IMG/VR virus record: IMGVR_UViG_3300042544_004275
Coordinates: 1 to 35,027 of that record
Direction: 5' to 3' (one strand)
Source: a virus
DNA: 35,027 nt
Shown: positions 5,954 to 27,991 of the stretch, one piece after another
Layout of the letters: each line of letters starts with the position of its first letter
Numbering within the stretch: position 1 is the stretch's first letter
Translations under genes and position numbers: made by a program
Notes under the pieces: model-generated
Seen by the model: the letters and a program-made list of their open reading frames with translations, nothing else
Database searches by the model: none
What the model was told of the DNA's origin: nothing

Positions 5954-8900
5954 GGCTGGAATCGGTCAAATTCTTCGAGGGCTTTGCGCTTGGATTGGTA
6001 TTCGCCGAAGGCGGCGAGTTCTTTGCGGCGGAGGACGGGGAAGGTGTCGAGGATGTAGGCGAATTCGTCGCGGGTGAGGCCGTAGAGGTGGGCGATGAGG
6101 GCGTCGAGTTCGGCGCGGGTCTGGGCGCGGTCGCCGTCGTCGCGGCGGTCGGGCTTGCGGTCGTGCAAGCCGCAGGCCGGGGACCAGGTGGAGGTGATGC
6201 TAGCATAGCTTTCAGCCAGACGCTCGCGCAGCGCCCGCTCATGCGCCGGGCCGTAGGCAGGCGGCGGCGTAGCCAGGGCGTCGAGCGTGTCCGCCGGAAT
6301 CTGCGGGAAAACTTCCTCCCAGAGGTCAGCGTATTCGTCGGTGGTGCAGACGAGGCGTAGGGCGAGGGCGACGACGGGCCAGAAGTAGGTTGGGTCCCGC
6401 GGGTCGCCGCAGCCAAGGCGGGGGACGGGGAGGGTTTCGACAATATGCATGTCGAGCTGGAGCGTGATCTTGAAACGAACGATGAAGTCGCAAGACACGG
6501 AATTAAGGACTCCGCACAGAAATAGAGTCTGAGCGGCCGTAATTGATTCAATAGGCTCGCCGGTCTCCTGATGCGGAACGAATCTTCTCACAATTACGCA
6601 CTTGTCGGTGCAAGCTACCTTAGCTGGCACCACTGTAGCAATCATTGAGCGAATATCCGTGCTTCGAGCAACTCGGCGAAAGCCTAACCGGTATTGGAAG
6701 CAGTCCAAAATTTTAACGGGCCTATTTTTGCGAACAAGTTGTCGCCAGTATCCAGTTGCCTCATTCTCCCGGAGTGTCTTCTCTGTGATCCATGCGCGGG
6801 GAGTCGCAAATTGATCATCGAATTGAAAGATCATCTTTCCCTCAAAAACGGGACGACCATCGCCCGATTCGTTGAAAAGCTTCCGGTCGCTACTGATATT
6901 GTATTCCTGGGATTGCTTAAAGCTCCATGCATGCGGGATGTCTTCAGAAAGCAGGGGATTCCCGCAGTAAATCTTATCAGCGATCAAGACGTCCACTGAG
7001 GTATTTACTTCAATGATGCTCAGTGAATTCGGCGCGAAACGGTTGACCTGAGCAAGCGATAGAGAAGGGGCATGTTCTTCGATATATGGAAGCCGACGCG
7101 GATCATGCTGCATGAAGGCACATTTAAAGGAAGTTGTGGTCCCTCCGGCCCGCGCTACAAGGGTGATGATTTTGAAACTGTTGTGAACTGCCGTGAAAAT
7201 CTCCGGATGACGATTCTCGAAACAGTAAAGCGTCGTGATGTCTGTATTGTCGAAAAAGTAACGACGAAGCCCCAACGCACTCGCATCAGTATAGAATCCG
7301 CTTGGGCATAAAATACCGATAAAACCTCCAGACCTGAGAGCCTGTATGAAGCGTTCTAGAAAGGCGCGGTATAGATCAATTTTGCCCTGCGTGAGGCATT
7401 TGTATGCCGTTGGTTCTTTGAAGAAGGCGCTGCCGAAGGTGAAAAGCTCCTGATACTCGGCCCATTTCTCGTCTAGTGCTGGATGCTGAGCATGTAGTTC
7501 ACGAATTCGTCTAGCTGCCTTATCTCCTTCCAGTGAGCGGAATCCGAGATCGTAATCAGAGTAGAACTCTTGCGTCTTCGGCTCCATCACATCCCATGGC
7601 GGATTTCCGACAGTCGCGCTAAAGCCGGCATTTTCCTTACCGCCGAACACATCGGGGAACTCCAGTGGCCAATGGAAAAAATTGTGACGATCACGCAGAG
7701 CACAGACACGCTGCCATACGGAGACAAGATCAAGCCGCAGTTCTCGCTCAGACTTCCCATTATGGAAATGGCTTAGTAAATCGGCATAATCCATGGGCTG
7801 GATACTGCTATCCATGAGATAGGCCGTGTGTAGATCAGCAAGTGGACCAAAGGCTTGGTGCAATTCAGTGCTGGCTTCCTCGAAGGTTGATCGCTGCCGG
7901 TCCGTGTCGTCCTCAGCAAGCTCGTTGATGGCCGCGATGCTTTCCGCAGCCCCATGGATACTTGTGGCTCGGGATTCGGATTTGAGGAAACCAAACGTTT
8001 TCTGAGCGCTACGGGCTTCCTCTAGAATTTTCTTAGTGTCTTTCCTGCGTTCAGGGATGGATTTTAGGGCAGCGAGGTCCCGCAGTCCTATGAGACTATT
8101 CCCGCAGCGCAGGTGGTGGTCGAGGAAGGTGAGCTTGTGGTCTCGGGCGAAGCAATTGAGCCAGAGGGCGAGCTTGGCAAGATTGACGGCGAGCGGATTG
8201 AGGTCGGCCCCGTAGAGGCAGTGGCGGGTGATGAGACGCCGCCAGTGGTTGGGCGCGCCAGTGATGCCGGAGGGCGCGCCGGGCAACGGCTCGATTCGGG
8301 CGAGCAGTCCAGTAACGAAGTCTGCCATGAGGTTGGCGGCGGCGACGAGGAAGTGGCCGCTGCCCATGGCGAGATCGCAGACCTTGTAGGTGAGCACCTC
8401 GCGTTTCACGAAGTCGTGGATCAACTCCTCGGCGGCGCGTAGGGCACCACGGCGGGCGGCCTCGTCGAAACCGGCGCGGGTTTGTTCGAGGTATTCTCGG
8501 AAGCGGCTTTCGCATGTGGCCTCCCACCGCTCGCGCAGGGGTTGGATGACGGCTTTTTCCACCAGGAAGCGGACCAGTGATTCCGGCGTATAGTAGGAGC
8601 CGGACTGTTTCCGCTCCAGGGCGGTCTCGCCGAAGAAGATGTCGCCCGCCTTGATCCGGATGTCGCCATCCTGGGCGCGTTGGCCGGCGGCGGGCAGGGT
8701 TTGCCAGCTATTCTTGGTGCGGCGGCGCAGGTAGTCGGTATCGGCCAGGCGCACCTTGTATTCGAGGATTGCCTCATACATTTCGCCGAGGTGGCGGACC
8801 TCCAGGTCCTGGTAGGGAATGGCGTATTCGGTGCCCGCCTCCGCATCGAGCGGATCGACGAAGGCGAGCCAGTAGAGCGCGTGCCAGAGGAAGTCATTGC

Positions 8901-10065
8901 GCAGGCGGTGGCGGCCGAGGAATTTCTCCTCTTGGTCGTCGAACAGCCCGCCATTGTAGCCCATGATGCCGTAGGTAATGTCGCCCTCGTTGACGGCCTG
9001 GACCAAGCCCTTAAGGTGGTGCCAGAGTTCGTAGCCGTGGTGGTCGTTGCGTTCGTTCCAGCGGAACTTGCGGGCTTCCTTGCAGAGAGCGCGGATCGAG
9101 TGCGGCGCGTAGATGTCCGCGTGGCGTTCCTCGGACGGCAGAAGCTTGCGGGCCTCGGCGTAAAACAGGAAGAGGCAGCGGTAGAGCAACTTGACCGAGC
9201 TCTCAAACACCTCGCGGCGCTCGTCCTCAGTGTAGGCGTCGCCGGTGCGCGGGGTGTCGGCGATGAAGCCATTGCAGATGTAGCGCAGCACGCCATCGAC
9301 CTGGCCGAGCAGCGGGGACTTCACCCGCGCTTCGAGCACGGCTTCGGAGACCTCGCCATCGAGGTCGAGACGCGAGAGGTAGATGCCGGCCTTGCGTTCC
9401 TTTTCAGCGTCGGTTTCGATGGCCTCCTCTTCCTCCTCCTCGCCGGATTCGGCGCGCTTCTGGCGTTTCACTTTTAGGCCGAGGGCCTTGAACTGCCTGG
9501 CCTTTTCCTTGTCGTAGTCATCACGTTCAACCGGGACGAAGCAGTCGGCATGGAAGAAGCGCTCGAAGAGGGCGTAGGCGATTTCGTCCTGGGCGGTGAG
9601 GGCTGTGGCGAGATCGAGTTCCACATGGTCCTCGAAGGGCTTGGCCGATTTGGTCGAGTAGAGCCGCCAGGTGGCACCATTGGTGAGGATGCCCCAGTTG
9701 AGTTTCTTTTCGCGCAGGGCGGTGACGAGTTTGGCGGGCCAGAAGCGGCCGACCGACTGGTCGTCGAGGTCGGCATCGGGTTCGACGAGGTAGAGCAGGG
9801 CGACGCTGTTTTGAAAGCTGTAGTCGTCGTAGAGCGAGTGGAGACCGCGGCCGTAAGTCACGCCGGAGAGTTCCTGGATGGTGAAGCCGAGGTTGCCGAG
9901 CGCGGCCTTGACGAAGGATTTCCAAAGAGTGGAGGCACCCGCCGCATCCCGGCGCTGCCAACTCTGGCTGAGGGTGACCAACCGTCCTTGGGCATCGTCC
10001 GGGCATGCGATGTCCTCTTGGACGGAATCAAGAAAGATGGTGCTGAAGAGACCGGCGTTATTCAT
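5950..10065 (-). CDS. PglX-like adenine-N6 DNA methyltransferase (possibly type IIG-like)
   Basis: 1371 residues. The N-terminal part carries WGILTNGATWRLY (124-136), which recalls the N-terminal nuclease-like regions of type I/IIG restriction enzymes. An acidic linker lies at about 207-220. The methylase core has SGSYYTP (488-494), motif I DLAMGSGHF (564-572), GADLNP (619-624) and the catalytic NPPW (821-824), the gamma-class amino-methyltransferase set seen in PglX and Eco57I-type enzymes. The C-terminal roughly 500 residues should hold target recognition. The DNA coding for about residues 660-1210 is visibly AT-richer than its flanks, as expected for an exchanged recognition module. It is longer than typical PglX (about 1200 residues). 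The start overlaps the preceding gene by 4 nt. Confidence 0.88.
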   Translation of the reverse strand: MNNAGLFSTIFLDSVQEDIACPDDAQGRLVTLSQSWQRRDAAGASTLWKSFVKAALGNLGFTIQELSGVTYGRGLHSLYDDYSFQNSVALLYLVEPDADLDDQSVGRFWPAKLVTALREKKLNWGILTNGATWRLYSTKSAKPFEDHVELDLATALTAQDEIAYALFERFFHADCFVPVERDDYDKEKARQFKALGLKVKRQKRAESGEEEEEEAIETDAEKERKAGIYLSRLDLDGEVSEAVLEARVKSPLLGQVDGVLRYICNGFIADTPRTGDAYTEDERREVFESSVKLLYRCLFLFYAEARKLLPSEERHADIYAPHSIRALCKEARKFRWNERNDHHGYELWHHLKGLVQAVNEGDITYGIMGYNGGLFDDQEEKFLGRHRLRNDFLWHALYWLAFVDPLDAEAGTEYAIPYQDLEVRHLGEMYEAILEYKVRLADTDYLRRRTKNSWQTLPAAGQRAQDGDIRIKAGDIFFGETALERKQSGSYYTPESLVRFLVEKAVIQPLRERWEATCESRFREYLEQTRAGFDEAARRGALRAAEELIHDFVKREVLTYKVCDLAMGSGHFLVAAANLMADFVTGLLARIEPLPGAPSGITGAPNHWRRLITRHCLYGADLNPLAVNLAKLALWLNCFARDHKLTFLDHHLRCGNSLIGLRDLAALKSIPERRKDTKKILEEARSAQKTFGFLKSESRATSIHGAAESIAAINELAEDDTDRQRSTFEEASTELHQAFGPLADLHTAYLMDSSIQPMDYADLLSHFHNGKSERELRLDLVSVWQRVCALRDRHNFFHWPLEFPDVFGGKENAGFSATVGNPPWDVMEPKTQEFYSDYDLGFRSLEGDKAARRIRELHAQHPALDEKWAEYQELFTFGSAFFKEPTAYKCLTQGKIDLYRAFLERFIQALRSGGFIGILCPSGFYTDASALGLRRYFFDNTDITTLYCFENRHPEIFTAVHNSFKIITLVARAGGTTTSFKCAFMQHDPRRLPYIEEHAPSLSLAQVNRFAPNSLSIIEVNTSVDVLIADKIYCGNPLLSEDIPHAWSFKQSQEYNISSDRKLFNESGDGRPVFEGKMIFQFDDQFATPRAWITEKTLRENEATGYWRQLVRKNRPVKILDCFQYRLGFRRVARSTDIRSMIATVVPAKVACTDKCVIVRRFVPHQETGEPIESITAAQTLFLCGVLNSVSCDFIVRFKITLQLDMHIVETLPVPRLGCGDPRDPTYFWPVVALALRLVCTTDEYADLWEEVFPQIPADTLDALATPPPAYGPAHERALRERLAESYASITSTWSPACGLHDRKPDRRDDGDRAQTRAELDALIAHLYGLTRDEFAYILDTFPVLRRKELAAFGEYQSKRKALEEFDRFQP

Positions 10066-10535
10066 TCGAGAGCGAGGGTTTCGGAAAGGTGTAGGACGAC
10101 GCGGGTGCCGGGAAATCGCTGGGGCTGGAACGCGGCGAATACCGGATCCTCGTGGGTGATGAGGATGAAGGCGGGCGATTGCTGCCAGAATTCGATTTTC
10201 TCGCAGAGGTCCTTCTTGGCGTGGCGGGGTTCGCTCTGGCTGAGCCAGGCCCCGAGAAGAAACTCAATGCCGCTGACGACGAGAAGTGGGGTTTGCCGAT
10301 GTTCGGCGATTAGGACCAGAAGTTTGTCCAACGAGAAACAGGAAAGGCCGGATAGTAGGGATTCGTCCTCGCGGAAGCGGCAGAGGACATCGAGGTGAGT
10401 GGCACCGAGGATCTGCGCAAGCCTGGCCGCATAGGCATGCTGGCCGGCGAGGTCCGGGCTGAGCAGGAGCGCGGCCCGGTTGCGTCTTTCGACGAGCTGG
10501 GTAGCGAATTGGCGCATGTCGATGAGGTCGGGCAT
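10062..10535 (-). CDS. BrxF-like small ATPase-fold protein
   Basis: 157 residues. The layout resembles a small P-loop protein: a hydrophobic strand AALLLSPDLAG where Walker A should be (about 17-27), a Walker B-like strand LLVVSGIEFLL (about 84-94) and a later ILITHEDP strand. The Walker A lacks the GxxGK[ST] lysine, so ATP binding is doubtful. BrxF, the small P-loop protein of BREX type 3, has similar length and sits near brxC and pglX; here it lies directly upstream of the PglX-like gene with a 4-nt overlap. The BrxF call is inference from size, fold pattern and position. The start is 2 nt after the previous stop. Confidence 0.5.
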   Translation of the reverse strand: MPDLIDMRQFATQLVERRNRAALLLSPDLAGQHAYAARLAQILGATHLDVLCRFREDESLLSGLSCFSLDKLLVLIAEHRQTPLLVVSGIEFLLGAWLSQSEPRHAKKDLCEKIEFWQQSPAFILITHEDPVFAAFQPQRFPGTRVVLHLSETLALE

Positions 10536-10537
10536 GG

Positions 10538-11860
10538 TCAGAGCAGAAGTCGTTCGCCAGCGGGTTCGTCCAGCTTGGATTTGGGTTCGGGTTCGCGGTT
10601 CTCGTAGCCGGCAGCGAGGAATTCCAGCGGCTCGAAGCCATCGACCAAGCGGACCTGATCCAGACCGTGTCGCACCTCGTAGCGGATCCAGCCCTTTTGG
10701 TGGAGGGTCTCAACCATCTGTCGCATGCTGGAGGCATCGAGGCCGAAGACCCGGCCCGGAGAACCGGGTGCGGCCTGGATTTCCTCGAAGGAGACCAGCC
10801 GCGCCTCGTGCTGGTTGCCTATCCAATAGATCATCGCGGCCAGCGACAGAGGCTGGAGAGCGGTGTAGCGGCGCAGGGCGAGGGTGTTATCGGGCGTTTC
10901 GTAGATGAGATTGAGCTTCTTGAAGTTCTTGACGGTATAGGCATCGACGACGAAGCGGACCTCGTAGGCGACATGGTGCATCAAGGAGCCCTGGCTGTAT
11001 TGGCCGGCCAGTTTTTCGCGCAACCAAGTGCACCAACCGGCCTGTGTGGTCGGTTTTTCATAGGGCAGAACCTCGTTGAAGATGGTGTGCCAGATGAGAT
11101 TGCGCGGTTTGCCCGCCCCGAGGAAATGGCAGAACTCCAAGGTCAATGTGGAATCAAGAAACAGGTCATGCTGATGCACGAGCCTGCCGAAGGGGCTGAG
11201 CAGTGCAGTGAGCGGAGTCAGAATCCCCATGGCGACGGCGATGCTGGTCAGGCTCTCCACCTGCCCTTCCGACAGCCCGGTGCCCTCCATCAGATCGCGG
11301 CGGACAAACTTGCGCACATCCGGGTGTTCCACGATGTAGGTCAGGAGTCGGGCGGTTTGGGTGGCATCGAGAGAGTAGCAATTGCTGACTTGGAGCTTGG
11401 GAGCATCCGAGCGCTTGGGGGCCTTGCTGGCAGGCTTGGACACCATCGGCGATGTGGTCAAAGCGGGCGAATTCTCGGGCGTGCCTTCCGTGTCAGGTGT
11501 TTCATTTTCCTCAGGAGGATCATCCGATGCCTGAGGAGGTGCCTCGGGCGATACAGGGTTCTCGGCTTGTTGACCGGCAAGGGCATCCGTGAGCTTCAAA
11601 AGCACGGCCGAGCTTTCCTTGATGCCTGGAACTTTCTGCAAATCGGCCACGGAGGCGGCAAGGACCGATGAAGCACTCCCAAATCTCGCGAGCAGGGCCT
11701 CCGCCAGCGGGCGGACATCCCTACGAGGAATCGAGTAGGTGAGCAGCAACTCAAGCAACGAGGTCTCGTCCGTGGCCGAGGCATCACCAGCGAGAAACTT
11801 GGCACGCAGTCGCTCCCGGTGGCCGGAGCTTTCTGGAATTGGTGCTGTTGTGTCGCTCAT
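10538..11860 (-). CDS. Protein with RadC-type N-terminal helix-hairpin-helix region; rest unrecognised
   Basis: 440 residues from the ATG at 11860; a TTG at 11896 would add 12 residues, but the ATG lies just before the recognisable domain. Residues 10-85 (HRERLRAKF, ELLLTYSIPRRDVRPLAEAL, VPGIKESSAVLLK) match the N-terminal UPF0758 region of RadC. The RadC JAB-type metalloprotease domain (HxH...D) is absent. After a Pro/Glu/Thr-rich linker (about 87-140) comes a roughly 290-residue globular part with FGRLVHQHDLF and FLGAGKPRN, which vaguely recalls DUF4007-type proteins of DNA-modification systems. Function is unknown; DNA binding or scaffolding within the defence complex is plausible. Confidence 0.7.
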   Translation of the reverse strand: MSDTTAPIPESSGHRERLRAKFLAGDASATDETSLLELLLTYSIPRRDVRPLAEALLARFGSASSVLAASVADLQKVPGIKESSAVLLKLTDALAGQQAENPVSPEAPPQASDDPPEENETPDTEGTPENSPALTTSPMVSKPASKAPKRSDAPKLQVSNCYSLDATQTARLLTYIVEHPDVRKFVRRDLMEGTGLSEGQVESLTSIAVAMGILTPLTALLSPFGRLVHQHDLFLDSTLTLEFCHFLGAGKPRNLIWHTIFNEVLPYEKPTTQAGWCTWLREKLAGQYSQGSLMHHVAYEVRFVVDAYTVKNFKKLNLIYETPDNTLALRRYTALQPLSLAAMIYWIGNQHEARLVSFEEIQAAPGSPGRVFGLDASSMRQMVETLHQKGWIRYEVRHGLDQVRLVDGFEPLEFLAAGYENREPEPKSKLDEPAGERLLL

Positions 11861-11919
11861 GTGGTGATTATCGAGGCTAAGAAAAGGGTGGGACAAATAC
11901 GGGGGCAGGGTGTGAAAAA

Positions 11920-12987
11920 CTAAGAATTCTCGTCAGGAAACTGGAATTCGATCTGTTGTTGGGCGTCGTCGGGGGCATCCACGAGTTTGAGGCTGGCAAC
12001 TTTCATCAGCCGGGCTCGGCCGCCGGCGTCGCGCTCGACCCGTCCGCGGACCTCGACCCGGTGATTGAGCCACTTCGAGGCGATCCGGTCGGCGACCTTC
12101 GGGCCGTAGATGCACCGTAGGTCGGTGACGAAGCCGCCCTCGATGCCGCGGACCTCGAATCGCTTGTCGTCAAGGTCGGTTTCCCGGACGACACCGGTGA
12201 TCGTGATGACCTCGGTTCGCTTGACGGGGGTGGCGAGGATGTGGCGCACCGTCTGACGGCTGTCCTTGGTGAGGGGTTTGATGTCAGCGGCACGGACTCC
12301 CCCGCCTGCGATGGTGACCGCGTTGATGCCGTGGGACCGGCCGGACGGGGCAAGCTCCCGGACCGCGATGAGGGCGGAATCGCGCAGCTTCGGATCGGTG
12401 ATGGTCTGCTTCACCTCCTCCTCGACCGCCGCCTCGCTGTCGAGTTCCGAGAGCGAGAAACTGACCTGCTTGATCGCCGCCACGGCACTGACGACCGCCT
12501 GGTAGAGCGGGTCGTTTGCGTTGAGCACCGTGTCTTCGGGGCGTGGGAGCGAGAACCCGAATCGGACGGTGCCGTTGTGGACCAGAGAGCTGAAGCCAAG
12601 CTCCATCTCCTCGGGCATGTGAAATGGCTCTCCGCTCTGGGGATCGCGGACGCCGGCCACCGCCTTGGTGACCTGGGCCACGTTCTTGCGGACCTTGGCG
12701 AAAGTCGAGGTGACGATGTTGAGCTTCGGGTGGGCGATCTGGGTGGCGGGCCCGCGCAATTCGACGGTGAGGTCGGATTCGTCGAGCATCTTTGCCAGCG
12801 GCAGCTCGTTGACGTAGAGTTCCCGTAGCCACTGGAACTGGTCAGCCGCCATGTCCTGGAAGAAGGCGGGATCGGCGTTGCCGTGGAGCTTGACCCACTC
12901 GTGGGCGGCGGCGATCTGCTCGATGAGGTCCCGCGCCTTGCGGTCCACCAACTGTTGCCAGGGAAGGTTGTCGCCGGGTGGAATCAT
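11920..12987 (-). CDS. Unrecognised operon protein with C-terminal OB-fold-like domain
   Basis: 355 residues, no family recognised. The N-terminal two thirds is a mixed helix/strand region (LPWQQLVDRKARDLIEQI near the start, a charged helix EAAVEEEVKQT about two thirds along). Residues about 255-345 show alternating strands (EVITITGVVRETDLDD, NHRVEVRGRVERD, RLMKVASLKLVD) typical of an OB fold, so nucleic-acid or partner binding is likely. No signal peptide or membrane segment. The start overlaps the stop of the nucleotidyltransferase-like gene by 4 nt, and 59 nt separate its stop from the next gene. It belongs to the operon by position only; a specificity or adaptor role is a guess. Confidence 0.65.
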   Translation of the reverse strand: MIPPGDNLPWQQLVDRKARDLIEQIAAAHEWVKLHGNADPAFFQDMAADQFQWLRELYVNELPLAKMLDESDLTVELRGPATQIAHPKLNIVTSTFAKVRKNVAQVTKAVAGVRDPQSGEPFHMPEEMELGFSSLVHNGTVRFGFSLPRPEDTVLNANDPLYQAVVSAVAAIKQVSFSLSELDSEAAVEEEVKQTITDPKLRDSALIAVRELAPSGRSHGINAVTIAGGGVRAADIKPLTKDSRQTVRHILATPVKRTEVITITGVVRETDLDDKRFEVRGIEGGFVTDLRCIYGPKVADRIASKWLNHRVEVRGRVERDAGGRARLMKVASLKLVDAPDDAQQQIEFQFPDENS

Positions 12988-13457
12988 AGTTTCAGGCGGA
13001 TGATGCCCTTGCGAAGAGCCTTGATGTCGTTGCCGAAGCGCCAGGCTTCTTCGGCTTTCACATTCTGATACCAGTCGAAGTAATCCTTGGCATTCAGCAG
13101 GCCAGGCACGGCAACGCGCAACGTCACCTTGTAGAGATCGACAAACTCACGCTTCAACCGGGCGCTCACGAGCGTTTTCAGGAATCCGGATTTCGCACCT
13201 TCAAAGTCGCGTGCCTGCAAAATCACATCGATGTTGCGACAACCTTCCCATGTGGTGATGAAGCTGCCGTCAAGGTAGAGCGTCACCGCCATGTCAGGGA
13301 TAAACTCTTGGAGTCGCTGCAAGAACTGGTTGAAGCGATCCAGCAGTTTCGCCCGCTCGCCGGACGACGCGAACATGCCCCGGACATCATCCAACGACAA
13401 GTCGTGGATGCCCTCGGGCAACACTCCTCCGTCAATGATGGATGGGACGCGGCGCAT
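12984..13457 (-). CDS. DUF6932-like nucleotidyltransferase-fold protein
   Basis: 157 residues. It opens with GVLPEGIHDLSLDDVRGMF, the usual opening of DUF6932-type proteins, then YLDGSFITTWEGCRNIDVIL, in which the GS and the downstream Asp correspond to the GSx(n)DxD centre of minimal nucleotidyltransferases. Only one Asp (NIDVIL) is clear where active members have D-x-D, so it may bind nucleotides without catalysis. Such proteins occur in toxin-antitoxin and defence loci. It starts 3 nt after the previous stop and overlaps the next gene by 4 nt. An effector or regulator role within the defence operon is inference. Confidence 0.6.
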   Translation of the reverse strand: MRRVPSIIDGGVLPEGIHDLSLDDVRGMFASSGERAKLLDRFNQFLQRLQEFIPDMAVTLYLDGSFITTWEGCRNIDVILQARDFEGAKSGFLKTLVSARLKREFVDLYKVTLRVAVPGLLNAKDYFDWYQNVKAEEAWRFGNDIKALRKGIIRLKL

Positions 13458-13460
13458 GGA

Positions 13461-14081
13461 TCAGGAAGCGTGTGGAAAGTCTTTACGCTCCGGGACCGGA
13501 TCGGTTTTCTCCTGATCTAACAATGCTTCCTCAAGCTCGTCCACGCCCGGTTGGGCCAGCGCGGCCAGGAACTTGGCCATCTCGTTCAGGTCGCAGGTGC
13601 GGAGGTTCTCGATTCCGGCGGTCTCGAACTGCCGGAAGCGCTCCTTTTCAGCGTCGGCGATTTCAGGGGGATAGGTCACGATGATCTTCGTGAGAGGGGA
13701 GATGAACGAGATCTTCTGCATCGCGCTCAGAAGCTGGTATTCAAGGTGGCGCTCACGCGGGAAGCGGGACCGGGCCTCGATCACCACCTGAAGGCTGGGA
13801 ACTTCGAAATCAAAGGCGTCCGATTCCTGCCCGAGCCGACCGCCGTAAGGCTCAATGATCTTGAGGATCTGCGCCTCCAGGTCGTGCAGGGTCCTGCGGG
13901 ACTCGGCCATCGAGCGGTCACGCTCGATCAGGGCCGTGACGTAGCCGCTGAAGTTGCCTCCGTAGAGATTGTCGGCGCGCTGCGACGCGAAGTCGTAGAG
14001 CGCCTGGTCCGTGAAATTCACGGATTTGACGCGGCGCTCCAGTGGTTTGTCCTGCCCGGCAGGTGTGGGGATCTCGTTCAT
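13461..14081 (-). CDS. RHH-like DNA-binding protein with possible degenerate nuclease domain
   Basis: 206 residues, first gene of the minus-strand operon. Residues about 17-54 (VNFTDQALYDFASQRA, NFSGYVTALIERD) follow the strand-helix-helix pattern of ribbon-helix-helix repressors. The rest shows a strand with VVIEARSRFPRERHLEYQLL, a KIIVTYP strand and further helices, a layout like a PD-(D/E)xK fold in which ExK reads EAR, so probably inactive. As first gene beside the control region it is a good candidate for autoregulation of the operon. The C-terminal tail is acidic and charged. Fold assignments are by eye and tentative. Confidence 0.6.
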   Translation of the reverse strand: MNEIPTPAGQDKPLERRVKSVNFTDQALYDFASQRADNLYGGNFSGYVTALIERDRSMAESRRTLHDLEAQILKIIEPYGGRLGQESDAFDFEVPSLQVVIEARSRFPRERHLEYQLLSAMQKISFISPLTKIIVTYPPEIADAEKERFRQFETAGIENLRTCDLNEMAKFLAALAQPGVDELEEALLDQEKTDPVPERKDFPHAS

Positions 14082-21022: not shown

Positions 21023-21310
21023 ATGAACCCACCGAAGAAACACCGGAAACGAACCCGGAGGAAAACCCGGACGTCACGCTACGAACACCTGTGGCCAGAG
21101 CTGGCATACATGCCTCGGCTCGACCATTGGCCGGATCGACCCGCGACCTTCAAACCGGAGCGCAGCCAGGTGCTCGCCTTCATCGTCGATGGATATGGCT
21201 GTGACCTGCGGGAAGCCGGCCGGATCTTCCAAGCGGCCAGGGATGCAGGCGTGATCCACTTCAACCCGGAAGTCCGGCAGTGGTGCGGCAGGAAAGGAGG
21301 TCAGCCATGA
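21023..21310 (+). CDS. Small basic protein of unknown function
   Basis: 95 residues from the ATG at 21023, chosen because a strong Shine-Dalgarno (GGAAGGAGG, 21008-21016) sits 6 nt upstream, unlike most genes here. The N-terminus is very basic (KKHRKRTRRKTRTSR). The rest (HLWPELAYMPRLDHWP, FIVDGYGCDLREAGRIFQAA) is helical, and no family is recognised. The stop overlaps the next ATG by 4 nt, so it is probably co-translated with the HTH protein that follows. A nucleic-acid-binding role would suit the basic tail. Confidence 0.65.
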   Translation: MNPPKKHRKRTRRKTRTSRYEHLWPELAYMPRLDHWPDRPATFKPERSQVLAFIVDGYGCDLREAGRIFQAARDAGVIHFNPEVRQWCGRKGGQP

Positions 21311-21882
21311 ACTCCGACGACTACGCCAAAAAGCAGGCGAAACGCGATGCCGAATACGAGCGCGACTACCGTGCCTGGGTGGAGTCATTGCCTGCGGAAG
21401 ACCGGAAGAAGGTCGAGGCAGCCGGTCTGGGCAAACCCATGCTGGCACGCCACGGCAACGGAGCACCCGATGGAGACCTGGCTGACTCGCCTGCGGCCAG
21501 CCACACGCCGGACATTGCCGATCTGGTCGATCATCGGGTGACCGATGATGACGAGGGGGACGAGACCATCGTGATGGACGCGGCAACCCGCATGCTCCGC
21601 TCCCTGGTCGCCGATCTCATCGCCCAGGGGAACGCACGCCTCACGCTGGAGTGCCTGGCCGTCGCCCTCGGGCTCAGCATCTACAACGGCGACAGCATGA
21701 GCGACATCGCAAGGCGTCACGGCGTCACGCGTGCCGCCGTCTCGAAGCGGTGCGTTGACATCACCCGAAAGCTGAACCTCCTGCCATCCCGCGCCATGCG
21801 GAGCATCAAGGCCCGCCGCAGCTATCAGCGATCACAAATCAAAGCCAAAACCGTTCAACATGACATCACTAGCTACCGCTAA
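21307..21882 (+). CDS. HTH protein resembling sigma-factor region 4
   Basis: 191 residues. Residues about 97-160 run RLTLECLAVALGLSIY, MSDIARRHGVTRAAVSKRCVDI, a helix-turn-helix of the sigma-70 region 4/LuxR kind. The N-terminal half is charged and low in complexity, with an acidic patch (DDDEGDET). A strong Shine-Dalgarno (aaaggagg) precedes the ATG. A phage late-gene regulator or small HTH regulator is likely. Its last 23 nt overlap the next gene in another frame. Confidence 0.65.
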   Translation: MNSDDYAKKQAKRDAEYERDYRAWVESLPAEDRKKVEAAGLGKPMLARHGNGAPDGDLADSPAASHTPDIADLVDHRVTDDDEGDETIVMDAATRMLRSLVADLIAQGNARLTLECLAVALGLSIYNGDSMSDIARRHGVTRAAVSKRCVDITRKLNLLPSRAMRSIKARRSYQRSQIKAKTVQHDITSYR

Positions 21883-22468
21883 CAGCCCCAAGTTCACGCT
21901 CAGCCGCACGGGCATCGAGTTCCACGAGGAACTGACTTTCGACGAATGGAACAACCTCGGCAACGACCTGGTGCCGATGGCGAAGGCAATCGGGTTCGTC
22001 GTCGGAGATTGGCTCAACTATGGCGAGAAGCGCTACGGCGAGAAATACGTCGAGGCGCTCCGCTTGACCGGCCTGGCGATTGAGACGCTCAAGGTTTACT
22101 CGCACGTCGCCCGGAACGTTGAAAAGTTGTTACGTAACAACTTTTTGGATTTCCACCACCACAAGGTGGTCGCGAAACTCAAGGACCCCGACGAAAAGAA
22201 GAAGTGGCTTGAGATCGCCGAACGCGAGAAGATGAGCGTCACGCGCCTTCGGAAGTCCATCAACGCCGGCCGCCCGCTGACGCCTGATGAAGCCCGCCCG
22301 GACCCGGTCGAGCGAGGCCTCCCGACCCACCTGTCGATCCTCAATGAACTGCGCCGGTGGTGGATGCATCAGACCGAAAAGCTGCCGGTCGATGAATGGG
22401 ATCCGTCGTTCCGCGAGTCGGTGAAGGAAGACTTCAAATTGGTGGTCGAAATCTACGAAGCACTCTGA
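21860..22468 (+). CDS. LmbU-like DNA-binding regulator
   Basis: 202 residues. GFVVGDWLNYGEKRYGEKY, TGLAIETLKVYSHVARNVEK and the HHHKVVAKL, KKWLEIAEREKMSVTRLRK segments follow the pattern of LmbU-type regulators found in actinomycete clusters and in many phages and plasmids. Several predicted helices, including MSVTRLRKSI, could form an HTH. The identification is from remembered sequence style and is tentative. The start overlaps the previous gene by 23 nt, so the pair may be co-regulated. Confidence 0.5.
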   Translation: MTSLATANSPKFTLSRTGIEFHEELTFDEWNNLGNDLVPMAKAIGFVVGDWLNYGEKRYGEKYVEALRLTGLAIETLKVYSHVARNVEKLLRNNFLDFHHHKVVAKLKDPDEKKKWLEIAEREKMSVTRLRKSINAGRPLTPDEARPDPVERGLPTHLSILNELRRWWMHQTEKLPVDEWDPSFRESVKEDFKLVVEIYEAL

Positions 22469-23350: not shown

Positions 23351-23683
23351 ATGGCTGCATCCCGCTTGGAATCAAGGTTTCTGCTGCTCTGGAGGGTGGC
23401 GCAAGGTCCGCCCCTGGAGCGGGAAGTGAGGTTCCACTCTTCCCGTTTGTGGCGCGCTGACTTTGCACACGTTGCAAGCCGCACGCTGATTGAAATCGAA
23501 GGCGGAATTTTCCAGCGCGGAGCAGGTCGGCACAACCGGGGCGCGGGTTACGCCAAGGATGCCGAGAAGTATCTCGAAGCCGTGCTGGCGGGATGGACGG
23601 TGATCCGCCTGACCGAGAAGCAGCTCGAACTCGACTTCATCGAGCGGATCGTCGCCTGGATCAATACTCCTCGGGGAGCATGA
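23351..23683 (+). CDS. Small PD-(D/E)xK-like endonuclease (DUF559/VSR-like)
   Basis: 110 residues from the ATG at 23351; an in-frame TTG at 23330 would add seven. WRADFAHVASRTLIEIEGG provides the Asp and Glu of a PD-(D/E)xK centre, followed by a GRHNRG loop and DAEKYLEAVLAGWTVIRLTEKQLE, the usual layout of small phage endonucleases related to VSR and VRR-NUC proteins. It may be a resolvase or repair nuclease. The 3' end overlaps the convergent minus-strand gene by 23 nt. Confidence 0.65.
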   Translation: MAASRLESRFLLLWRVAQGPPLEREVRFHSSRLWRADFAHVASRTLIEIEGGIFQRGAGRHNRGAGYAKDAEKYLEAVLAGWTVIRLTEKQLELDFIERIVAWINTPRGA

Positions 23684-23939
23684 CACAAGTCGAGCTGCGG
23701 TCCCATTCGGTGATGATGTAGATCCGCCGACCGCCCCCGAGCTTGTAGTGGCTGAGTATCCGGTCGCCGTGGATCAGGGCATCCTCGTTCGCCTGCTTGT
23801 CGCATTCGTCGAGATCACCCCAGTCGCCGCAGTGGTGACGGCGCATGTAGGACGCCAGGTCGATGCCTAGGGCGAGGGCACCGGGCGTGGCGACGGTCTT
23901 CCCCAGCGGGAAGCGTGGTTCCATGATTCGGTATGCCAT
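23661..23939 (-). CDS. Small conserved plasmid/phage protein (often mislabelled type I restriction subunit M)
   Basis: 92 residues. The pattern TPGALALGIDLASYMRRHHCGDWGDLDECDKQANEDAL, abbreviated RHHCGDWGDL...NEDAL, then GDRILSHY and YIITEWDRSSTCVMLPEEY, belongs to a small widespread family from plasmids and phages, frequently annotated as a restriction subunit although it has no methylase motif. Its function is not known to me. It is the last of three minus-strand genes, 6 nt after the preceding stop. Confidence 0.65.
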   Translation of the reverse strand: MAYRIMEPRFPLGKTVATPGALALGIDLASYMRRHHCGDWGDLDECDKQANEDALIHGDRILSHYKLGGGRRIYIITEWDRSSTCVMLPEEY

Positions 23940-23945
23940 GGTCGT

Positions 23946-24227
23946 TCAGTCGTTGGAGTTGCCCCATTCCGGGTGGCGCTTGCCGGTGGCGATCAGGCCG
24001 GAAGCAAGCATGTCTTCGACCAGCGCCTTGGGCGGCCAGGCCCGGTGCGGCTTGCCGGTCTGCATCTTGGACGCCCGGGCAGTGGCACGGCAGTAGGACG
24101 GCAGGTCGGCTTCCGGGTTGAAGCTGTCATGTCGGAGCTTGGTCATCAGGTCGGTGGCATCCACGGCGGAGAATGTCGCGCCGTCGATGGTGTGGTATTC
24201 GGTGTTCATGGTGGTCATTGTCTTCAT
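23946..24227 (-). CDS. Small hypothetical protein in minus-strand island
   Basis: 93 residues from the ATG at 24227; in-frame ATGs at 24218 and 24209 are possible. It contains a central soluble region (DATDLMTKLRHDSF, SYCRATARASKM) and a C-terminal helix (PKALVEDMLASGLIATGKRH). No family recognised. It sits 9 nt after the amidoligase stop, so the three minus-strand genes probably form one transcript. Confidence 0.55.
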   Translation of the reverse strand: MKTMTTMNTEYHTIDGATFSAVDATDLMTKLRHDSFNPEADLPSYCRATARASKMQTGKPHRAWPPKALVEDMLASGLIATGKRHPEWGNSND

Positions 24228-24236
24228 GGTGGGAGA

Positions 24237-25043
24237 TCATGCAGCCAGTTTTTTGGCGCGGGCGGTGTAGAATTTCGTGAGGCCGCGGGCGTCGATGGCT
24301 TGGAAGAACCACTTCATGCGGCTCATTCCGATCCCGGTGTCCTCCGGGCGGTTGCGGACGGCGGCGGCGGATTCGGCAGCGTCAAACAGGCGGGCCATCA
24401 GCCGCACCCAGTTGGTGATCTTCTCGGGGCAGGTGGTTCCCGAGTGGTGCCGGACTTCGAGCGTCTGGTGGCGGAAGTAGGAATGAATGTTCAGCTTCCG
24501 GTAGCGGCAGGGATAGAGCGCCTTCATTTCCTCGATGCTGCGGCAGGCGTCGATCTTGCCGAACATCCGGGAGCATTGGCCGCGGTGGTCGCCCGCCCCG
24601 ATGGGCTCGTGGGCCAGGTTGGTCTGGCAGTATTGGTTGGCGTTGCCCCGGCGGGAGGCAGGCTGGAAGGTGTCGAGCACGTCCTCGAACTTCAGCCACA
24701 TCTTGAAGAGGTTCTTGATGCCCTTGAGGCTCATGCTGCGGGCGTCGAAGTGGACGTGGAATCCGCAGCGCTTGTCCACCTTGGCGCCGGCGGCTTCGAG
24801 TGCGGCGGCGGCGACCCGGACTTCCTCCAGACCGGCTTCGCCTTCGAGGACCGGGGAGACCAGTTCGTATCCGCATGACCCGTCGCTCACGATCTTCCAG
24901 TGGGGAGTGGCCCGGTGGGTGTATCCCTCGAACTCGGCATTGATGCCGGCGGTCCGGAGGCTCATCAGGACTTGCTCGGTGGTGACGGTGGAGAGGAACT
25001 CGATTTCGACTCCGAAGCGGCGGGACATCAGTGGCGTTGTCAT
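24237..25043 (-). CDS. Amidoligase family protein (ATP-grasp-like COOH-NH2 ligase)
   Basis: 268 residues from the ATG at 25043; an ATG at 25052 adds three, and far upstream starts would run through regulatory sequence. GVEIEF (11-16), CGFHVHFD (93-100) and RYRKLNIHSYF followed by TLEVRHHSGT carry the acidic, histidine and arginine motifs of the amidoligase_2 family, glutamine-synthetase-fold ligases predicted to form amide or isopeptide bonds. Phage and plasmid members have been suggested to modify peptides or proteins. It is the first gene of the minus-strand island. The substrate is unknown. Confidence 0.75.
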   Translation of the reverse strand: MTTPLMSRRFGVEIEFLSTVTTEQVLMSLRTAGINAEFEGYTHRATPHWKIVSDGSCGYELVSPVLEGEAGLEEVRVAAAALEAAGAKVDKRCGFHVHFDARSMSLKGIKNLFKMWLKFEDVLDTFQPASRRGNANQYCQTNLAHEPIGAGDHRGQCSRMFGKIDACRSIEEMKALYPCRYRKLNIHSYFRHQTLEVRHHSGTTCPEKITNWVRLMARLFDAAESAAAVRNRPEDTGIGMSRMKWFFQAIDARGLTKFYTARAKKLAA

Positions 25044-25118
25044 GTCTATCATCTGCCAGATCGGCACCACCTGTCCATGGCTTTCTGTCCCCACTAACAA
25101 AAAGACGAAAGCCGCGTG

Positions 25119-25155
25119 ATTGGCACGCATCGTGTCACTCAGGCACCGTGCCAAT
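25119..25155. promoter_or_regulatory. 9-bp perfect inverted repeat ATTGGCACG/CGTGCCAAT
   Basis: The arms lie at 25119-25127 and 25147-25155, separated by 19 bp, giving a centre-to-centre distance of 28 bp (nearly three helical turns). The site is in the 198-bp gap between the divergent amidoligase gene and the plus-strand gene at 25242. A binding site for a dimeric regulator is more likely than a terminator, because the spacer is long. Regulator unknown. Confidence 0.5.
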
Positions 25156-25182
25156 GTGTTGTTTTTCGGATATGTGATAACT

Positions 25183-25241
25183 CCGACAGAAAGACGAAAA
25201 AAGACATGGACAGTGGTTGTGGGACTGGCAGATGAGGGACG
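25183..25241 (+). repeat. 59-nt bipartite leader repeat, copy 1
   Basis: A 29-nt block (25183-25211, starting CCGACAGAAAGACG) and a 15-nt block (GGCAGATGAGGGACG, 25227-25241) flank a 15-nt variable stretch. Both blocks recur exactly at 26932-26990 with the same spacing. Copy 1 ends immediately before the ATG at 25242. AGGGACG could be a ribosome-binding site. A partial relative (ACAAAAAGACGAAA) lies at 25097-25110 upstream of the amidoligase. Confidence 0.75.
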
Positions 25242-25460
25242 ATGAAAGGGACTGCCCGCACCGGAAATGACACTGCATACGTCACCGGAATGTTGGTCCT
25301 GATCCGCCCCGAGTGGGATGGAGACGACACGCTCCATGTGATCGCCGAATGGAACGGCGACCGCGGATTCATCCGGCCTGTCGAATGGCCGCACGGTCGG
25401 ATCATCCCGACCGAACTCGTCACCGCCGAAATGATCCAACCCGCAACCATCAACCCCTGA
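25242..25460 (+). CDS. Small hypothetical protein behind repeat copy 1
   Basis: 72 residues (starts MKGTARTGNDTAYVTGMLVL). It is strand-rich with a central RPEWDGDDTLHVIAEWNGD, and no family is recognised. The 59-nt repeat ends directly at its ATG, which supports this start. The next small gene begins 7 nt after its stop. A small phage accessory protein of unknown role. Confidence 0.6.
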   Translation: MKGTARTGNDTAYVTGMLVLIRPEWDGDDTLHVIAEWNGDRGFIRPVEWPHGRIIPTELVTAEMIQPATINP

Positions 25461-25467
25461 AACCACC

Positions 25468-25635
25468 ATGTACACCGCCGCAGAAATCGACGCCATGACC
25501 ATCGAGGAGATCGAACAAGTCGCCGAACTCCTCACCGATGAAGCCCGCGAGGAATGGGCTGCCGCCGGATATTCCGGCGAGGCCTACTCAAATCTCGGGA
25601 TGAACGACGCCGAGAAATTCATCAACTCCCGCTGA
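25468..25635 (+). CDS. Small acidic hypothetical protein
   Basis: 55 residues, starting MYTAAEIDAMTIEEIEQVAE and ending INSR. It is helical and strongly acidic. The CA-rich leader tgaaaccaccATG matches neighbouring genes. Nothing in it identifies a function; tight spacing to both neighbours and phage-like context support it as real. Confidence 0.55.
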   Translation: MYTAAEIDAMTIEEIEQVAELLTDEAREEWAAAGYSGEAYSNLGMNDAEKFINSR

Positions 25636-25662
25636 ACTAACCAACCCCAACCAACCACCACC

Positions 25663-25953
25663 ATGGACATTGAATACATCAAGCAACACCGCCGCCTGAC
25701 TCTCGAATACGGACGCGGCGAAACCTACTGCTCCAACAAGCCGACACTCTACGGGCACTCGACCTACGGCCGCAGCTCGGTGCTCGCCGGCCGCCCGCGC
25801 CGGGTGTTCCTCGAAAGCTGGGACGATCTGGACACCGCCCGCGCCGAACTCAAGGCCGCGAGGATCCGCTATGCCGACCTCTGCGAGACAGGCGGCTCCA
25901 CCCACATCCCGGTGGACGTCATCACCGCCGGACTGCCCGACGACGAGAACTGA
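25663..25953 (+). CDS. Hypothetical phage protein
   Basis: 96 residues (starts MDIEYIKQHRRLTLEYGRGE). It has an N-terminal strand/charged segment, a Gly/Arg-rich centre (GRSSVLAGRPRRVFLE) and a C-terminal helical and strand part. No family recognised. The leader is the clearest CA-rich example (aaccaaccaccaccATG) and lacks a Shine-Dalgarno sequence. Confidence 0.6.
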   Translation: MDIEYIKQHRRLTLEYGRGETYCSNKPTLYGHSTYGRSSVLAGRPRRVFLESWDDLDTARAELKAARIRYADLCETGGSTHIPVDVITAGLPDDEN

Positions 25954-25974
25954 ACCAACAGCACACGAGATCCC

Positions 25975-26673
25975 ATGAGCAATCAAAACGACATCCTCGA
26001 CAAGATCCGCAAACTGCTCCGCCTGGCCGACAGGTCGCGGGGTGCCACCGAGAACGAGGCCAAGGTGGCGCTGGCCAAGGCCCAGGAACTCATGACCCGC
26101 CACAACATCGACTCCGCCCTGCTCCGCATGGAGCGCGGCGAGTCCGGCGATTCGTTCGCCGTGGACAAGGGCAAGGTCGATCTGCCGAAGACCCTCAACC
26201 CGGCCGACCTGATGATCCTCTCGCTGCTCCAGCAGCATTTCAACGTGAAGACCATCCTGATGCCCACGGGGCGCGGGACTCCGGTGGACATCATCGGGGC
26301 ACCCGCCGACATCGACTTCGCGATCTTCGCGTTCAACTTCCTGCGGCAGACCTTCTTCCGCTGTTGGAACGAGTTCAAGACCACGCGGACCAACCCGGAC
26401 AAGGCATCCTACTACCGGGGCCTGCGCGACGGGCTCAACGCCGAACTCAAGGCAGCCAAGGAACGCGCCGAGCAATCCTACGCCGCCGACCAGCGGCAGG
26501 CATACGGGCTGGTCGTCGTGGACCAGCAGGCGGCGATCACCCGCTACGTCGAGGACCACTACGGCAAGCTCCGCAACCGCGCCCAACGCCGCCGCCGCGT
26601 CGATTCCGGCAGCTACTTCGCCGGGGAACAGAAAGGCCGCACCATTCGGATCAACCGCCCGCTTCCACAATGA
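25975..26673 (+). CDS. DUF2786 family protein
   Basis: 232 residues. The N-terminal 50 residues (ILDKIRKLLRLADRSRGATE, NEAKVALAKAQELMTRHNID) are the DUF2786 signature found in phages, plasmids and some chromosomal proteins. The middle is mixed and the C-terminus basic (NRAQRRRRVDSG, GRTIRINRPL). The family's biochemical role is not established to my knowledge. The stop overlaps the next ATG by 4 nt. Confidence 0.75.
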   Translation: MSNQNDILDKIRKLLRLADRSRGATENEAKVALAKAQELMTRHNIDSALLRMERGESGDSFAVDKGKVDLPKTLNPADLMILSLLQQHFNVKTILMPTGRGTPVDIIGAPADIDFAIFAFNFLRQTFFRCWNEFKTTRTNPDKASYYRGLRDGLNAELKAAKERAEQSYAADQRQAYGLVVVDQQAAITRYVEDHYGKLRNRAQRRRRVDSGSYFAGEQKGRTIRINRPLPQ

Positions 26674-26924
26674 AAGCCATGAGCAGAATCGAAGCCGCCC
26701 TGAAAGCCGTCCAAGTGGCGCACGCCGTTGCCGAAGTGATCCGCAATGCCGGCGAAATCCCGAGCGGCCACCTCTATGCCCGAGTCATGGGCGTCATGGA
26801 CCTCCGCCAATACGAGCAGGTCATCGACCTCCTCGTGGATGCGCGACTCGTCGAGCGCATGCCCTCGCACATCCTCCGCTGGGTCGGGCCAGCGACCAAC
26901 CCGCAACCTAACATACCATCATGA
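26670..26924 (+). CDS. Small hypothetical protein
   Basis: 84 residues. The ATG at 26670 overlaps the DUF2786 stop; a second ATG at 26679 is possible. The sequence is helical (RIEAALKAVQVAHAVAEVIR) with a winged-helix-like second half (SGHLYARVMGVMDLRQYEQV). A small DNA-binding domain is conceivable but not shown. The stop lies 7 nt before repeat copy 2. Confidence 0.55.
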   Translation: MKAMSRIEAALKAVQVAHAVAEVIRNAGEIPSGHLYARVMGVMDLRQYEQVIDLLVDARLVERMPSHILRWVGPATNPQPNIPS

Positions 26925-26931
26925 AAACCCG

Positions 26932-26990
26932 CCGACAGAAAGACGAAAAAAGACATGGACGTGCCCGATCAGACGGGCAGATGAGGGACG
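26932..26990 (+). repeat. 59-nt bipartite leader repeat, copy 2
   Basis: The same 29-nt block (26932-26960) and 15-nt block (26976-26990) as copy 1, with a different 15-nt middle. Here the middle plus the following bases form a hairpin, GCCCG-atcaga-CGGGC (26963-26978); copy 1 has no equivalent stem. The element ends 2 nt before the ATG at 26993, so position relative to a start codon is conserved in both copies. Confidence 0.75.
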
Positions 26991-26992
26991 CT

Positions 26993-27232
26993 ATGACAAC
27001 AGCATCCCTGCCTAACAATCACTACACCAAGGCGATGCTCCGCGGCATCCGCAGTCTGGAACAGAACGGCTTCACCGTCCGGCGCATCCTGCCGGTCGAT
27101 CCGATGGCCGGCATCCACGCCCGCGAGTTCCGCGCCGACTTCGCCAAGCAAACCCAAACCGGACTGCTGGCGTTCAGCGTCCGCATCGACACCGACGGCA
27201 ACGTCACCAACCCCAACCAATACAACGCATGA
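26993..27232 (+). CDS. Small hypothetical protein behind repeat copy 2
   Basis: 79 residues. The ATG at 26993 is preferred over an in-frame start near 26921 because the repeat ends 2 nt before it, exactly as copy 1 does at its gene. It contains YTKAMLRGIRSLEQNGFTVR and strand-rich AREFRADFAKQTQTG. No family recognised. The stop overlaps the next ATG by 4 nt. Confidence 0.55.
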   Translation: MTTASLPNNHYTKAMLRGIRSLEQNGFTVRRILPVDPMAGIHAREFRADFAKQTQTGLLAFSVRIDTDGNVTNPNQYNA

Positions 27233-27468
27233 ATCACATGACTGCCAGCCAGGCTCGTGAATGGATGATTTCCCATTGGGATGCCGATGAGGTCGGAACC
27301 GACCTCGATACCGACATTCTGGATGAAGCCCACCTTGCCATTTTCGGGAGCTATCCACGCGAGGACGAAGATGCCTTTGGCAATCTCAAGAATCACCTGC
27401 TGCCGACTCTCACCGCAGAGGAGACGGCGGAAATCGAAACCAACACCAACCAAATCCCAACCCACTGA
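27229..27468 (+). CDS. Small acidic hypothetical protein
   Basis: 79 residues, starting MNHMTASQAREWMISHWDAD. It is acidic and helical, with DVGTDLDTD-like turns and a C-terminal Asn/Thr-rich tail. No function recognised. Coupled by a 4-nt overlap to the preceding gene, and 4 nt before the following start. Confidence 0.5.
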   Translation: MNHMTASQAREWMISHWDADEVGTDLDTDILDEAHLAIFGSYPREDEDAFGNLKNHLLPTLTAEETAEIETNTNQIPTH

Positions 27469-27472
27469 AACC

Positions 27473-27991
27473 ATGAATAAGCTCTATTGGATCGTCTGCG
27501 ACGACAAGGACCACAACGTATTCGAAGGCCGCTATCAGGGCCGCACCCGAGGCGAGGCATTGAAGTTCCTCAAGCAAGCCATCGGGCGCAAGACCCTCAA
27601 CGGACTGGTCTTCACCATCACCGAAATCCCGGTGCCGCTAATCCGCGAGATCGTCGCGGAAATCCTCGCCGCTGGCGACGGCAACAACGCCACGCCCGCG
27701 GCAAACGTCGTGCCGCTCACCCGGCACGAGTCCGAGGCCAGCCCGGGACGCTACGACGCGTTCGCCGACGCGGCTGAGCCCGAACCAACGCCAGCGGAGG
27801 CCACGCCACCCGAGGCGAAGGCATCCAAGCCCGCCAAGAAAGTCGGCAACCCAGGCAAGGGTGATGATCACTGGTCCAAGGTCCGGGCCCACTGGCTCGA
27901 ATGCCGCAGCGTGAAGCAAACGGCGGAGCACTTCGGCCTGTCGCCCAACTCGGTCAAAACCCGCGCCCGCCGCGAGGGCTGGGGCAAGTGA
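27473..27991 (+). CDS. Protein with C-terminal helix-turn-helix
   Basis: 172 residues from the ATG at 27473. The N-terminus (KLYWIVCDDKDHNVFEGRYQ) is strand-rich, and an Ala/Pro/Glu linker covers about 98-125. Residues about 130-172 (HWSKVRAHWLECRSVKQTAE, HFGLSPNSVKTRARREGWG) form a homeodomain-like HTH of the kind seen in phage regulators and some terminase small subunits. Because another small-terminase candidate lies next to the large subunit, a regulator is the likelier role here. Confidence 0.6.
   Translation: MNKLYWIVCDDKDHNVFEGRYQGRTRGEALKFLKQAIGRKTLNGLVFTITEIPVPLIREIVAEILAAGDGNNATPAANVVPLTRHESEASPGRYDAFADAAEPEPTPAEATPPEAKASKPAKKVGNPGKGDDHWSKVRAHWLECRSVKQTAEHFGLSPNSVKTRARREGWGK

Follow-up and report, generated by a model that had tools for sequence, protein, structure and literature searches.

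A two-box motif with rigid spacing before gene starts is the probable core promoter of a small regulon in a virus-like mobile element of Akkermansiaceae

Sets of near-identical two-box promoters that fire one class of genes together are known from phages and mobile elements, including the T4 middle promoters and the P2/P4 late promoters. The motif described here resembles these sets in being a repeated two-box element with fixed spacing, placed before several operons of one element family, whereas its sequence, its host phylum and the position of the start codon, 7-10 nt from the second box, are different. It shares with bacterial sigma-70 promoters two boxes 16 bp apart, an A-rich stretch upstream of the rightward copies and a TGGAC close to TTGAC, but its GCAGAT is not TATAAT-like. 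The FliA-type (sigma-28) consensus contains GCCGATAA, and the -35 boxes of ECF factors contain GGAAC. The motif's GCAGATGA agrees with GCCGATAA at 6 of 8 positions and the spacer is of similar length, whereas its -35 box departs from the FliA type. Element-specific promoter sets are already known; the sequence of this motif matches no consensus testable here, and no earlier description of it was found in the open-licence papers searched.

The analysis was based on a window of 35,027 nt, the whole stretch of DNA taken from IMG/VR record IMGVR_UViG_3300042544_004275. The original prediction had described two exact pairs of 29-nt and 15-nt blocks around a constant 15-nt middle, each ending 0-2 nt before a start codon, and this description is correct to the base. 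Copy 1 consists of CCGACAGAAAGACGAAAAAAGACATGGAC (25183-25211), 15 variable nt and GGCAGATGAGGGACG (25227-25241), followed with a gap of 0 nt by the ATG at 25242; in copy 2 the same two blocks occupy 26932-26960 and 26976-26990, and 2 nt separate them from the ATG at 26993. The exact 29-mer occurs in the window only in these two copies. The search of the phage and its relatives that had been proposed added a third copy, CATGGAC-N16-GCAGATGA, on the minus strand at 25079-25049, preceding the amidoligase ATG at 25043, and demonstrated a core shorter than the two blocks: CATGGAC-N16-GCAGATGA is all that the three window copies have in common.

On the plus strand, the upstream, -35-like block CATGGAC lies at 25205-25211 in copy 1 and 26954-26960 in copy 2, and the downstream, -10-like block GCAGAT at 25228-25233 and 26977-26982, respectively; on the minus strand, copy 3 has these blocks at 25073-25079 and 25051-25056. 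GCAGAT is followed by the ATG after 8, 10 and 7 nt in copies 1, 2 and 3. The A-rich upstream tract, CCGACAGAAAGACGAAAAAAGA in copy 1 (25183-25204, plus strand) and at 26932-26953 (plus strand) in copy 2, is UP-element-like; it is a feature of the rightward copies, lost in copy 3 and unconserved before leftward genes. Copy 1 diverges from copy 3 and is followed 1.75 kb downstream by copy 2, which is confined to an intergenic gap of 68 nt (26925-26992). All three zero-mismatch core sites in the window are correctly oriented and directly 5' of gene starts, and a reversed control pattern gave 0 sites. An inverted repeat with 8-nt arms, TTGGCACG ... CGTGCCAA, occupies 25119-25156, between the divergent copies.

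The gene behind copy 3 encodes an Amidoligase_2 (PF12224) protein of 268 aa (24237-25043, minus strand; profile match E 1.2e-36) and is the first of a leftward operon that continues with 23946-24227 and 23661-23939. Copy 1 precedes a gene for a 72-aa protein with no assigned function (25242-25460, plus strand), followed by 25468-25635, 25663-25953, a DUF2786 protein gene at 25975-26673, and 26670-26924. The operon of copy 2 begins with a 79-aa protein, also with no assigned function (26993-27232, plus strand), and includes 27229-27468 and the gene of a 172-aa helix-turn-helix protein (27473-27991, plus strand). Elsewhere on the element, a 191-aa protein whose residues 82-158 resemble sigma region 4 is encoded at 21307-21882 (plus strand), followed by an LmbU-like regulator (21860-22468) that scores below its family's curated cut-off. 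In one relative (L238, G251:C30), the motif before the homologue of the 79-aa gene has been replaced, a natural loss of copy 2; the replacement is possibly the insertion of a small transposase, ending about 20 nt or less from the start codon.

Relatives differ in the A-rich part and in the GAGGGACG tail, so that the true core in the window and its close relatives is CATGGAC-N16-GCAGAT, followed after 7-10 nt by ATG. The first IMG/VR scan selected sequences by the motif with a spacing of 16, and the spacing was therefore judged on loci that had not been selected by motif. Homologues of two proteins, the amidoligase (from IMG/VR) and the 172-aa helix-turn-helix protein, were retrieved without use of the motif. 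Among close amidoligase homologues (at least 74% identity), 42 of 43 carried the motif, always with exactly 7 nt between it and the start codon. Of these sites, 38 are exact and 4 have CATAGAC; the 43rd homologue has 2 nt of upstream DNA on record. The motif was found in 0 of 18 distant amidoligase homologues (at most 46% identity). Homologues of the 172-aa protein with a placeable start had the motif within 3 kb upstream in 63 of 76 cases. The remaining 13 comprise 4 with less than 150 nt of upstream sequence, 3 with 0.7-1.1 kb, and 6 at 45-50% identity, five of which carry a relative of the motif, YATRGAC-N16-GCAGAG-TCTGGAC-ATG, and define a sister clade.

In this sister clade the gap from GCAGAG to ATG is 7 nt, the spacing between the boxes is 16 in 8 of 8 sites with none at 8-15 or 17-25, and two of the loci have a divergent motif pair. 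With the sister clade included, the rigid parts are YATRGAC, 16 bases, GCAGAK, 7-10 bases and ATG. This motif-independent test settles that the motif belongs to gene starts. Three sister-clade loci (L426, L427 and L430) also contain TTGGCAC-type repeats several times in their divergent regions, where sequences differ between contigs; together with the inverted repeat at 25119-25156, these may represent the repressor operator of an immunity-like switch.

In IMG/VR, the motif scan identified at least 119 stretches, and well over half of those listed clearly belong to the same element; the listed matches often keep both the order of two or three copies and the genes behind them. Whole viral records mostly contain 3 or 4 copies in a single cluster of about 2-4 kb, in which one copy faces opposite to the other two or three. 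One record of 103,827 bases, IMGVR_UViG_3300042564_006100, has two clusters, at 28-29 kb and 85-88 kb, as if two elements had joined or integrated nearby. The bacterial genomes with the motif are Akkermansiaceae and Verrucomicrobiaceae assemblies. Within 260 Akkermansiaceae-family genomes, 33 had a match, and roughly half of these are copies of the element, which is present three times in one genome (G123) and as a remnant adjoining an apparent tRNA-Arg gene in another (G125). No DNA-level relatives were found among annotated phages. More distant relatives have a repeated leader of their own, GATGGTGCGCGACAA...GGCTGGCAGG, which precedes amidoligase-like genes and occurs twice on the minus strand of L253 and also in L247 and L255.

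Residual CATGGAC-N16-GCAGAT hits in the 260 genomes numbered about 20, against about 28 expected by chance as calculated by hand under equal base frequencies, and the motif was accordingly rejected as a general host promoter. An ordinary dispersed repeat or insertion element was rejected likewise: the copies are tied to gene starts and other genomic hits are at chance level. Both observations that would have spoken against the original prediction, further copies placed randomly relative to genes and ordinary repeats outside the phage, are contradicted by these data, with clustered copies, a motif at the start of 42 of 43 amidoligase homologues and only chance-level residual hits. Its statement that the repeat is not due to chance is borne out by three oriented copies at start sites, an empty reversed control and retention of the motif in relatives. 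It had invoked selection or gene conversion to explain identical blocks around a drifting middle; gene conversion is unneeded, since spacers of the same class are inherited by descent across genomes.

From the observed sequence, position, spacing, conservation, orientation and exclusivity of the motif, we infer promoter activity, a start point and a recognition factor. The motif probably (we estimate roughly 0.6) serves a small regulon as its core promoter, with leaderless or near-leaderless mRNAs, in a virus-like mobile element of Akkermansiaceae (Verrucomicrobiota). In this reading, YATRGAC would make the -35-like contact and GCAGAK, 16 bp away, the -10-like one. One copy would drive the leftward amidoligase operon, and two or three copies the rightward operons, including that of the helix-turn-helix protein. 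Because the second box lies 7-10 nt before the start codon, transcription would start at the ATG or a few bases from it, giving leaderless or nearly leaderless mRNAs.

The motif has the features of a two-box promoter of the general kind: conserved boxes, a fixed spacing of 16, a variable middle and orientation toward genes. Rigid two-box spacing with a free middle is expected of a sigma/RNA polymerase contact, and these features, together with placement before operons and confinement to intergenic space, most likely mark a core promoter. The strongest point in favor of this reading is the compactness of the divergent regions. In four relatives (L199, L201, L202 and L240), only 42-45 bp separate the divergent upstream blocks, and the two copies take up the whole space between the genes. 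Hardly any room is left for separate promoters, so that the core promoter is most likely the motif itself. A sigma-70 scan of three of these compact regions (L199, L202 and L240) gave no site.

Against a promoter stands the fact that neither box resembles TTGACA/TATAAT well: TGGAC is near TTGAC, and GCAGAT is unlike TATAAT. A sigma-70 (RpoD) consensus promoter, defined as TTGACA and TATAAT with 16-18 bp between them and at least 9 of 12 matches, was rejected, the one 9/12 match being TGGACA-N18-GATGAT in copy 3 only, with 0.7 expected by chance. An attempt to derive the promoter consensus of the host from a 400-kb portion of a single contig yielded nothing usable. Since the motif is not a sigma-70 consensus promoter, a special factor, either a helix-turn-helix protein of the element or an alternative sigma factor of the host, probably helps in its recognition. 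The Shine-Dalgarno-like GAGGGA occurs in some classes only and is absent in ATTAACCATG and CAGTAACGATG; before rightward ATGs it might serve for ribosome binding, in which case transcription would have to start further upstream. Of the three functions originally proposed, namely promoter, operator and 5'-UTR element, a promoter shared by a small regulon is the best supported.

The main rival is an operator overlapping a promoter, in which a repressor or activator of the element would contact the two boxes from the same side of the helix, overlap an ordinary weak promoter and co-control the three operons. Box centers about 22 bp apart, near two helical turns, would suit such a protein; the motif is restricted to the element, and the element encodes several DNA-binding proteins, including those of 27473-27991 and 21307-21882 and the LmbU-like regulator. 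The boxes, however, do not form an inverted repeat or a clear direct repeat, an operator would not require a constant distance of 7-10 nt from the ATG, and the compact divergent regions offer little space and no consensus for the separate promoters it would need. We regard an operator as an unlikely explanation of the motif.

Rather less probable still is a signal in the mRNA, a short untranslated leader read by a translation factor, a small RNA or an element protein, with the promoter upstream. The constant distance to the start codon, GAGGGA before the ATG in some classes, and the similar first codons of unrelated genes (ATGACAAC in copies 2 and 3) are consistent with this reading, but there is almost no space for upstream promoters between compact divergent copies. 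Moreover, 18 diverse copies showed no consensus fold or covariation, the folding z averaged -0.4 over 19 copies and a search of Rfam gave no match, so that a structured RNA leader or riboswitch was rejected; the absence of RNA structure and the rigid 16-nt spacing likewise make the 5'-UTR element of the original prediction less likely. Very improbable is a 9-codon leader ORF, ATG GAC, five variable codons, GGC AGA TGA (M-D-x5-G-R-stop), coupled translationally to the next gene. All three window copies keep this frame open, and many variants are altered at the third base of the Thr codon. Of 52 distinct spacers, however, 5 contain an in-frame stop, a number comparable to the 8 and 6 counted in the two alternative frames. 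Most copies on the amidoligase side no longer have the TGA, several relatives have CATAGAC and hence no start codon, and TATAGAC predominates in the sister clade. In-frame stops and lost start codons refute the leader ORF as a general explanation. Rightward coding across the element in the CAT-GGA frame was also discarded, this frame being open in some classes and containing stops in others.

Returning to the core promoter, two proteins of the element are candidates for the factor that would recognize it. The 172-aa helix-turn-helix protein is a candidate regulator: it is the only window protein detected on two small motif-bearing elements (L195 and L196), and in two further loci (L241 and L242) a variant, CATGGATC-N16-TAGACC, precedes its gene. 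Fold searches with this protein gave no convincing relative. The second candidate is the 191-aa protein, whose residues 82-158 aligned with sigma region 4 chains at Z of at most 6.6 (rmsd 2.9, 68 aligned residues) in a weak model (pLDDT 66), and middling Z values are common. A Sigma70_r4 match was present in only 2 of 21 members, and the protein is missing from several motif-bearing genomes. Both candidates are tied to the motif mainly by lying on the same element, and a scan of element proteins that covered part of the ORFs revealed no sigma factor with region 2. A more specific version of the promoter reading is offered only tentatively: one of these two proteins would direct host RNA polymerase to the non-canonical two-box promoter to give leaderless mRNAs, a switch kept in the main clade, the sister phage clade and small satellite-like elements.

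The remainder of the window includes an apparent defence block on the minus strand (3974-14081), with an OLD/Gabija-like ATPase-nuclease (3974-5953), a type IIG or DrmMI-like methyltransferase of 1371 aa (5950-10065), an SspB/DUF4007-like protein (10538-11896) and a DUF6932 / PDC-M63A-like protein (12984-13457). Replication-type genes (Sak4-like, exonuclease, helicase, primase, ParB-like and tRNA methyltransferase) are also present, and no capsid, portal or terminase genes were found among the window ORFs scanned. The element may be a phage, a phage-plasmid or a satellite.

Little is known about the transcription signals of Verrucomicrobiota and their mobile elements. With 13 fixed bases, rigid spacing and 3-4 copies per element, the motif provides a marker for spotting such elements in metagenomes, and it allows one to predict which operons fire together. 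The factor that recognizes it is the more interesting question, and the motif offers a handle to test initiation by Akkermansiaceae RNA polymerase at a start codon.
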